A stretch of 34,079 nucleotides of DNA from contig SCRA01000071.1 of NCBI GenBank assembly GCA_004297985.1, positions 1-34,079 on the forward strand, read 5' to 3'. Source of the stretch: a bacterium. Its GTDB lineage: Bacteria > Vulcanimicrobiota > Vulcanimicrobiia > Vulcanimicrobiales > SCRA01. The translations under genes were made by a program, and so were the position numbers. Positions 11,540 to 34,079 of the stretch are shown one piece after another (position 1 is the stretch's first letter; each line of letters starts with the position of its first letter). A model generated the notes under the pieces. That model did no database searches. It worked only from the letters and a program-made list of their open reading frames with translations, and was not told the DNA's origin.

Positions 11540-13014
11540 CAGTACGCATCCCCTACTGCTGCGTTGCGCTCTGCGAGCTCCTGCATCTGCGTCATCGTCT
11601 TCTGACGTTTCCCACCTTCGGCACAGCCAAGGCCGCTGGGCAGCAGCTTGTAGGGATTGAGCGTATGCCCTGGATCGCAGGCATCGCGGAAGGCCGTGAA
11701 CGCGGCGAGCGTCGCCTCGGGGAACTGCAGAACCATATAATCGCGCTTCTCCATCCCCACGCCGTGCTCTCCCGTAATACTTCCGCCCGCCTCCACGCAG
11801 GCGCGCAGAATCTCCTCGCCGGCCGCGATGGCCCGCTTGGCTTGGCCGGGATCGCGATCGTCGAAGAGGATCAGCGGATGGAGGTTTCCATCTCCCGCGT
11901 GGAAGACGTTGGCCACGCGCAGGCCGACCTTGCGTGCCGCCTCCTCCACGCGCTCGAGGACTTCGGGAAGGCGCGTGCGCGGGATGACGCCGTCCTGCAC
12001 GTAATACGACGGACCGATGCGCCCCATCGCTCCGAAGGCCTTTTTGCGCCCTTTCCAGAGCGCCTCGCGCTCCTCGTCGTTCTGCGCAACGCGCACCTCG
12101 GAGGCGCCGTTGGCACGACAGATCTCGACGACGCGCGGCGCAGCGTCCTCCACCTCTTCACGCAGTGCCTCCAGCTCTAACAGCAGCACGGCGCCCGCGT
12201 CTACGGGGTAGCCCGCGTGGGAGAACGCCTCGATGGCGGCGAGCGCGGTATGGTCCATCATCTCCATGGCCGTGGGCACGATGCCCGAGGCGATCACCGC
12301 GCTCACCGCTTCGCTCGCGGCACGGCAGGAGTCGAAAGCGGCGAGCATCGTTCGCACGCACTCCGTTTTGCGGACGATGCGGCAGAGGATCTGCGTGACG
12401 ACGGCGATCGTCCCCTCGCTGCCGCAGGTCACGCCCACGAAGTCGGGCCCCGGCGGGTCGGGGGCCGGCGAGCCGATGCGCACGCGCTCGCCATCGGCCA
12501 TCACGAGTTCGATCTCTAGCACGTGATTGGTCGTCACACCCCCGGTAAGCGTGTGGGGACCGCCGCTGTTCTCCGCGACGTTGCCGCCGATGGTACAGGC
12601 GCCTTGGCTCGAGGGATCGGGCACGTACTGGAAGCCTAGCGGGGCGACGTGTTTGGTGAGATCGAGGTTCACCAGGCCCGGCTGGACGGTAACCGTCTGG
12701 TTCTCCGTGTCGACGGCGAGGATCGCCTTCATGCGCGCTGTCGAGAGCACCACGCCGCCGCAGAGCGGAATCGATCCCCCCGAGAGCCCCGTCCCCGCAC
12801 CGCGCGGCGTCAGGAAGACGCCCTCCTCGTGGCAGAGGCGCACCACGCCCGCCACCTGCTCCGCCGTACGCGGAAGCGCGACGGCCATCGGCAGCGCGCG
12901 GTCGATGGAGCCGTCGTACATGTAGAGCCGCAACTGCTGCGGCTCGGTAAAGAGCCCGTCATCGCCGACGACGGCGCGCAGGCGCGCGATGAAGTTCGAT
13001 GGTTGCTCGCTCAT
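11539..13014 (-). CDS. glcD: Glycolate/D-lactate oxidase catalytic FAD subunit
   Basis: A 491-residue FAD-linked oxidase that converts glycolate to glyoxylate; close relatives oxidise D-lactate to pyruvate. The FAD_binding_4 domain shows LTPRGAGTGLSGGSIP and GGNVAENSGGPHTLTGGVT. The C-terminal FAD-oxidase domain shows NVFHAGDGNLHPLI and SITGEHGVGMEKRDYM, with the conserved His residues. I chose ATG at 13014 because GAGGGA lies a few bases upstream and the product (MSEQPSNFIARL) matches the family start. The frame is open 27 codons further up, but that stretch has no homology and covers the regulatory region. It heads the operon glcD-glcE-glcF-iclR. With a LarA racemase nearby, D-lactate is a realistic alternative substrate. 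Confidence 0.93.
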   Translation of the reverse strand: MSEQPSNFIARLRAVVGDDGLFTEPQQLRLYMYDGSIDRALPMAVALPRTAEQVAGVVRLCHEEGVFLTPRGAGTGLSGGSIPLCGGVVLSTARMKAILAVDTENQTVTVQPGLVNLDLTKHVAPLGFQYVPDPSSQGACTIGGNVAENSGGPHTLTGGVTTNHVLEIELVMADGERVRIGSPAPDPPGPDFVGVTCGSEGTIAVVTQILCRIVRKTECVRTMLAAFDSCRAASEAVSAVIASGIVPTAMEMMDHTALAAIEAFSHAGYPVDAGAVLLLELEALREEVEDAAPRVVEICRANGASEVRVAQNDEEREALWKGRKKAFGAMGRIGPSYYVQDGVIPRTRLPEVLERVEEAARKVGLRVANVFHAGDGNLHPLILFDDRDPGQAKRAIAAGEEILRACVEAGGSITGEHGVGMEKRDYMVLQFPEATLAAFTAFRDACDPGHTLNPYKLLPSGLGCAEGGKRQKTMTQMQELAERNAAVGDAY

Positions 13015-33827: not shown

Positions 33828-33914
33828 GACCCGAATACGCCGCCGCAGCGCGGTACGGATCCCTCACTCGCCGGCAAAGGGGCAAGCACCTCGTCTGCCA
33901 AATGCGAGATCAAG

Positions 33915-34079
33915 GAGCGATTGCGTTTCGCGCAATTGCGCCCCCGGAGGGACTTCAGCGAAACAGGGCTCCCGCGAGCGAAGTGAAACGGAGCGAGTGG
34001 GATGAGCAATTGCGTCTCGCGCAATTGCGCCCCCGGAGGGACTTCGGTGAAACAGGGCTCCCGCGAGCGAAGTGAAACG
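33915..34079. repeat. 89-bp tandem repeat with internal dyads, running off the right edge
   Basis: Two copies of an 89-bp unit begin at 33915 and 34004; the second is cut by the window end. Shared core segments include CCCCCGGAGGGACTTC, then GAAACAGGGCTCCCGC, then GAGCGAAGTGAAACG, with a few substitutions. Each unit contains an inverted repeat with 5-base spacer (ATTGCG-N5-CGCAAT at 33920-33936; AATTGCG-N5-CGCAATT at 34008-34026), an overlapping GCGCAATTGCGC palindrome and a small GCTC-CCGC-GAGC hairpin. The period is not a multiple of three, so it is unlikely to be protein-coding. It lies upstream of the cupredoxin operon. Confidence 0.8.

Follow-up and report, generated by a model that had tools for sequence, protein, structure and literature searches.

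What is the tandem repeat, rich in palindromes, that runs off the end of this stretch of DNA, and to which of the neighboring genes does it relate? The window, by which we mean the whole stretch of 34,079 nucleotides analyzed here, is the complete contig C62 of the genome G000, an assembly of 3.19 Mb in 90 contigs. A sequence-only reading had described two near-identical 89-bp units upstream of a cupredoxin/ECF operon, and had offered a dispersed REP-like element, an operator array or a source of structured RNA as possible explanations.

The array and its insertion site

The two units running past the window end were confirmed by TRF, which reported positions 33915-34079 as a repeat of period 89 with 1.9 copies, 94% matches and a score of 302, and a repeat search of the window returned two copies at a spacing of 89, with 90% identity across an 87-nt register. 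The last 165 bases of the contig comprise a complete 89-bp unit followed by 76 bases of another, which is incomplete in the window where the contig end breaks off the array. The features are listed below; R1 is a covariance model of the repeat family, and its bit scores for units A and B are partly circular, since the R1 training set included unit A of C62 and the C13 copy of unit B.

33915-34003, plus strand: unit A (89 bp); R1 match 33914-33975, 77.6 bits (partly circular)
34004-34079, plus strand: unit B, first 76 of 89 bp; R1 match, 82.5 bits (partly circular)
C13 35558-35646, minus strand: full counterpart of unit B, identical to unit B of C62 wherever both are readable
33917-33939 (33917-33925 with 33931-33939), plus strand: hairpin H1 of unit A, 9-bp stem and 5-nt loop
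34006-34028 (34006-34014 with 34020-34028), plus strand: hairpin H1 of unit B, with covariation
33941-33955, plus strand: core C(C/T)CCCGGAGGG(A/G)CTT of unit A, with a small hairpin CCC-GGA-GGG
34030-34044, plus strand: core of unit B
33970-34002, plus strand: H3, the third hairpin of unit A (TCCC..GGGA), with covariation; its GA/GA internal loop is invariant
From 34059, plus strand: hairpin H3 of unit B, broken off by the contig end
33990-33993, plus strand: GGAG, Shine-Dalgarno-like as read from the sequence, 8 nt before the ATG at 34002
34002-34079, plus strand: possible mini-ORF of unit B (5' part in the window; 30 codons on C13)

The array appears to continue on contig C13, whose end overlaps that of C62 exactly over 105 nt. 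There, a 29-base piece of a unit is followed by a complete unit, after which a glcD-like gene of 467 codons, encoding FAD_binding_4 and FAD-oxidase_C domains, starts with an ATG. The spacing from GGAG to this ATG is the same 8 nt as in the window. This overlap, together with synteny in relatives, suggests that the two contigs are adjacent, and extending the array in this way gives at least two units before the FAD-oxidase ATG. The array does begin 87 nt 5' of the cupredoxin ATG, but the units are oriented toward the divergent FAD-oxidase gene and abut its start codon. All three sister genomes of the genus (G001, G002 and G003) have the cupredoxin and FAD-oxidase genes as the same divergent neighbors without the repeat, indicating that the array was inserted right at the FAD-oxidase start codon on C13, and the G000 flanks align to the sister intergenic regions once the array is omitted. 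As judged from these assemblies, the insertion, of at least two units in sense with the FAD oxidase, is specific to G000 among the four genus genomes. Inspection of G000 against the sisters revealed no clear target duplication at this locus. Elsewhere in the window, a weak 21-bp tandem repeat (1.9 copies) is located at 12139-12179.

Two further symmetries had been attributed to each unit, and both are confined to unit B: the CTTCG/CGAAG pair, where unit A has CTTCA, and the doubled GTGAAAC, where unit A has GCGAAAC with GTGAAAC. Neither is kept in the other copies printed. The sequence-only reading had also dismissed a repeated peptide on the grounds that the period is not divisible by three. 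That argument fails, since 89 = 3 x 30 - 1, which is the spacing of 30-codon mini-ORFs linked by ATGA overlaps. On C13, unit B reads from ATG to GGA TGA into the next ATG, giving 30 codons with the translation MSNCVSRNCAPGGTSVKQGSRERSETERVG and a stop over the FAD-oxidase ATG. The mini-ORF frame is interrupted by a stop in 10 of 27 copies, and the other frames are as open. Because frames are often open by chance, an open mini-ORF is no evidence for a peptide, and we dropped a conserved peptide from the unit as a candidate, given that 17/27, 19/27 and 16/27 copies are open across the three frames.

A dispersed family with covarying hairpins

The genome and its relatives contain more than these two copies, R1 matches forming 16 loci in G000 and occurring in all four genus genomes. 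BLAST with the 89-bp unit (E<=0.01) returned nine matches in G000, seven in G001, none in G002 and one in G003. The model R1 was built from 18 copies (alignment A3, which omits two odd or partial copies of alignment A2, on C24 and C12, and one of the two C72 copies), and produced 24 matches in G000 and 11, 3 and 3 in the sisters at E<=1e-3, or 36, 19, 8 and 6 at E<=0.1, with the 18 training copies matching by construction. Outside the genus its matches were weak, amounting to 14 loci in 13 of 113 other genomes of the class, with a best score of 31 bits; among the seven of these loci that were inspected, the one at a gyrB end in G081 is clearly the element, one in G079 is possibly so, and five are chance-like. 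A broader signature, CTTTCAAN{2,7}GGGGTCCCC, occurred at 12, 12, 10 and 2 sites in the four genus genomes and at eight sites in 7 of 145 other genomes of the phylum, one of which (G103) is chance-like by eye, while the reversed signature, used as a control, had 0 sites in 149 phylum genomes. The window units have no exact match to this signature, but share GGGNTCCC and H3 parts with it. No match was found in a plasmid search with the 89-bp unit, and a literature search, which largely covered papers outside subscription journals, revealed no description of the family.

Several other sequences were encountered during these searches. Loci L059 (G000:C10:25629) and L060 (G000:C21:3376) belong to another repeat, with a common GGGACTTATGGAGCGCGCGAG and a GCGGTCGCACAGGATGTGCGAGCCGCG stretch. 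At L058 (G000:C2:83600), CTCCCGGAGGAAGTT is present at an apparent murG-murC junction, and is perhaps a decayed copy, or due to chance. At L037 (G001:C68:4661-4701), H1 and the core lie beside an apparent 5S rRNA gene on a short contig, close to where it ends.

Window-type copies have a common layout of H1, the core, a short linker, GGG-N-TCCC, and H3. Because the folding energy of the whole unit was no better than that of shuffled sequences (for unit A as RNA, z was -1.2 on the plus strand and -0.5 on the minus strand), we relied on covariation to assess structure. Across 18 copies, the nine pairs of H1 are paired in 96.9% of cells and seven of them have changed on both sides. The shuffle comparisons that follow overstate independence, since some copies in each alignment are related and the pieces of H3 were selected by eye: H1 with the core hairpin is paired in 97.7% of cells over the 18 copies, and both sides have changed in 21 cells (shuffle mean 4.3, 0/500 as high; slid controls 0-2), and H3 is paired in 98.6% of cells over 21 long-type copies, with 23 both-side changes (shuffle mean 8.1, 0/500 as high; slid controls 0-2). 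The GA/GA internal loop of H3 is invariant in alignment A5, which omits H3 copies of other lengths. Further pair types, as another measure of covariation, did not rise above shuffles (157/500 for H1 with the core, 284/500 for H3). Folded as DNA with the letters of unit B, H1 surpassed its shuffles (z -3.9), and H3 did not. The dyads noted earlier are thus real, H1 by both folding energy and covariation, and H3 by covariation though not by energy. The suggestion of a structured single strand was also supported by the covariation of two hairpins, which could serve RNA or single-stranded DNA alike. GNA triloops are very stable in single-stranded DNA, and the H3 loop in many copies of A5 is mostly GAA, GCA or GTA, perhaps a sign that the hairpin acts in DNA and not in RNA.

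Genomic positions, empty sites and target copies

The 24 R1 matches in G000 were reduced to 16 loci by combining adjacent units and by joining six pairs of contig ends (overlaps of 48-110 nt) that meet within copies of the family. At all 16 loci, the element and a neighbor or host gene identified by Pfam run in the same sense; at the window locus, the downstream gene alone is in sense. Nine loci contain a start codon or lie within about 12 nt of one, with starts read by eye: those of the FAD oxidase, a thioesterase, an rfaE2-like cytidylyltransferase, the gene after mreC (for which a Pfam search found no match), sucD, mutL, rplF, fliG and rpsC. These starts are of two types: an ATG that follows GAGYGAGTGGG directly or a few bases later, and a GTG/ATG within RTGAGTGGG. 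The GGAG found about 8 nt upstream of the start in the window and in several other copies may act as a ribosome-binding site. Two loci are in frame within genes, namely pgk and valS; in valS the tRNA-synt_1 profile is split at 183/184 across C4 and C48, and the repeat is read through on both contigs. In the L22 gene, the element forms an in-frame C-terminal extension. Three loci lie behind the stop codons of arginase, ABC ATPase and enoyl-CoA hydratase genes, where no adjacent co-directional start was seen, and two, behind an ATP synthase gamma gene and a second thioesterase gene, are broken off by contig ends.

Copy number varies, from at least two units at the window and four 81-bp units on G001:C62 to single copies elsewhere. 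The G001 array (L031, positions 1500-1815) precedes a gene that resembles DNA polymerase III delta and that we take to be holA, although a Pfam search of this gene found no match; the end of the gene upstream of the array resembles the end of a unit. Copies of the element are also present at the ends of G000 contigs C4, C7, C11, C12, C13 (both ends), C14, C18, C24, C48, C55, C61, C62, C72 and C90. The family probably breaks the G000 assembly, and true arrays may be longer than assembled. Automatic gene calls may misplace start codons inside copies.

Three other intercistronic loci are empty in sister genomes. The MazG/thioesterase junction, compared in G002 and G003 (it was not found in G001), is a stop/start overlap in both (GCGC-ATGA-ACGC and GCC-GTGA-ACGAG, respectively), and reads ATGAGC...GTGGG-ATGAGC in G000. 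At the rfaE junction, for which the comparison covered G001 and G002, G001 has an ATGA overlap where G000 has 88 bp extra, and G002 is empty without such an overlap. Between sucC and sucD, the element is missing from all three sisters, where three or four bases separate a TAA stop from an ATG/GTG start. Insertion into an ATGA/GTGA stop-start overlap therefore fits the thioesterase junction in G002 and G003 and the rfaE junction in G001, but not rfaE in G002, sucCD or the window locus. Other copies are shared: those at mutL and mreD are common to G000 and G001, and pgk has a full in-frame element in G000 and G001 (both sides of the H3 stem having changed between them), H3 alone in G002 and nothing in G003. 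Because the mutL, mreD, pgk and gyrB copies are common to more than one species, they are older, and give no proof of present activity. In another genus, a unit behind tRNA-Gln in G113 is accompanied by a 79-bp exact duplication; this element is also present in G108 and is absent from G104, G107 and G111 (four of the ten other genomes of that genus were inspected). The lengths of duplicated target range from 4-6 bp at the thioesterase junction to 14 nt at mutL, 33 nt at rplL and 35-79 nt at gyrB and tRNA-Gln, and we know of no single transposase that fits such an inconsistent length.

Some hairpin arms appear to be drawn from the host gene. We scored 11 cases, picked by eye, for complementary arms against 1000 letter shuffles each, and in seven of them the core-adjacent arm is reverse-complementary to the upstream host gene over 14-28 nt, with a score attained by 0/1000 shuffles in every one. 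The positives are gyrB in G000, G002 and G081 (three genomes of two genera), tRNA-Gln in G113 and G108 (two genomes of a third genus), and enoyl-CoA hydratase (ECH) in G000 and G001. They are partly orthologous and probably represent three host genes and three or so events. In five of the seven (gyrB and tRNA-Gln), the element is followed directly by a second copy of the last 35-79 nt of the gene, a stretch that includes the hairpin arm itself in the G000 and G002 gyrB arrays. A complementary arm was absent from the remaining four cases (mutL, pstB, rplL and the thioesterase junction), where the hairpins are self-contained. The direct repeat of 33 nt at rplL was above control, and direct duplication was not above control in 5/11 cases (ECH in both genomes, mutL with 14 nt, pstB and the thioesterase junction), counts that leave out short or diverged repeats visible by eye. 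Tandem gyrB 3' ends, each with the element, lie behind gyrB at L111 (G000:C90:5119-5326) and L139 (G002:C9:28226-28545), and at L136 (G113:C171) and L184 (G108:C73) the element lies behind tRNA-Gln with the 3' half of the tRNA duplicated. It is conceivable, although we regard it as doubtful, that these sequences represent a new class of short mobile element that copies its target twice, once inverted as a hairpin arm and once directly behind, in the order T - T' - core - H3 - T. If so, this double copying would mean that the element spreads by target-primed or template-switching synthesis, and not through a cut-and-paste transposase.

Origin of the array and its relation to known elements

The family is dispersed, its hairpins are kept by covariation, its copies lie in sense, and sister genomes have empty sites. 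We are fairly confident that the array in the window arose by tandem duplication of one copy of a short, genus-level mobile element of about 90 bp, which resides in sense at or near gene starts, or in frame. Such an element would enter in sense, either in frame inside genes or at or close to start codons, sometimes within ATGA/GTGA operon overlaps. With GGAGYGAGTGGG-ATG as the frequent end of its 3' hairpin, it would leave the downstream gene with a ribosome-binding site and start codon. At the window locus, it would have inserted directly before the glcD-like FAD-oxidase ATG and then have been duplicated in tandem, with growth possibly occurring by slippage or recombination. It may be mobilized in trans by an enzyme that recognizes the hairpins, and may be retained because both neighbors stay translatable after insertion. 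The best reading is that the element is non-autonomous and lets operon genes stay translated. As to a mobilizing gene, PF01797 (Y1/RAYT type), the sole family sought, was found in none of the four genus genomes, which are 82-98% complete, whereas a control search found it in 5/14 genomes.

A functional structured RNA, such as a leader, translational regulator or thermometer controlling the downstream genes, would account for the two covarying hairpins, the invariant GA/GA loop and core, the sense orientation at start codons, and the Shine-Dalgarno-like GGAG within the 3' arm of H3. We consider it unlikely, in view of the unrelated downstream genes (mutL, sucD, rplF, fliG, FAD oxidase and others), the occurrence of the same genes without the element in sisters, the two copies within coding sequence, and an Rfam scan of the window that returned 0 families at gathering score. 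Slightly harder to sustain is the proposal that there is no mobile element, and that hairpins at gene ends arise and multiply time after time through hairpin-driven template switching and slippage. This process would leave arms reverse-complementary to the host gene (as at gyrB, tRNA-Gln and ECH) and directly copied gene ends (gyrB, tRNA-Gln), but the common core CCGGAGG..CTT..GGGNTCCC and H3 cannot come from unrelated targets, and the same H1 is found in several copies at unrelated loci.

An array of protein-binding sites for the cupredoxin/ECF operon, as the sequence-only reading had suggested, is very improbable: although the dyads stand in tandem within a divergent intergenic region, their orientation and position match the FAD-oxidase start, the array is missing from 3/3 sisters with the same gene pair, and the family occurs at 15 other G000 loci, with copies before unrelated genes. 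The comparison with REP sequences stands only in part. REP/BIME elements are linked to the RAYT transposase. REPs have been described as dispersed palindromic extragenic repeats with a unit of 20-40 bp (PMC3733652), and the copies studied here are likewise dispersed (24 R1 matches in G000, and copies in all four genus genomes), palindromic and mainly extragenic. Their unit is longer, at about 89 bp, they are biased toward gene starts, some are in frame within genes, and PF01797 is lacking as described above, so that a strict REP/BIME element moved by a RAYT/Y1 transposase is, in our view, scarcely credible.

The mobile element that we favor resembles several known systems. Mycobacterial interspersed repetitive units (MIRUs), reportedly described by Supply et al. 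in 1997, form tandem arrays and insert at ATGA/GTGA stop-start overlaps, duplicating TGA. To our knowledge, they lack dyads, and how they move is still an open question. A 2025 review presents MIRUs as repeats of apparent mobility whose insertion points are start codons and whose internal ORF is coupled at -4 nt (PMC12548453), and an abstract terms them minisatellites. Our family is similarly short, dispersed, apparently mobile, located at start codons and arranged in tandem arrays, and sits between operon genes in sense (16/16 G000 loci), but with two loci within genes; compared by description, it differs in its covarying hairpins, in-frame gene insertions and lineage. Rickettsia palindromic elements (RPEs), according to a 2024 MITE review, are palindromic repeats of about 100-150 bp, many of them in frame within unrelated, metabolic genes (PMC10969869). 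The in-frame insertions in valS, pgk and the L22 C-terminal extension are RPE-like, whereas most R1 loci in G000 are at gene starts or ends, again as compared by description. The same review characterizes MITEs as short, dispersed and hairpin-forming, some with target direct repeats (PMC10969869). The element shares these features, including direct target repeats at some copies, and looks non-autonomous, but is without terminal inverted repeats spanning the unit, since its inverted matches either form internal hairpins or link the H1 regions of the two units, and its target duplication is not constant in length (4-6 bp to 79 nt, or none seen). The family therefore appears to behave like both MIRUs and RPEs, a likeness by description that implies membership in neither.

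These results point to a repeat family that enters dense operons without breaking genes, beyond mycobacteria and Rickettsia, and whose target is revealed by empty sister sites. Its covarying hairpins and target-copied arms would provide a testable handle on how MIRU-like elements move.
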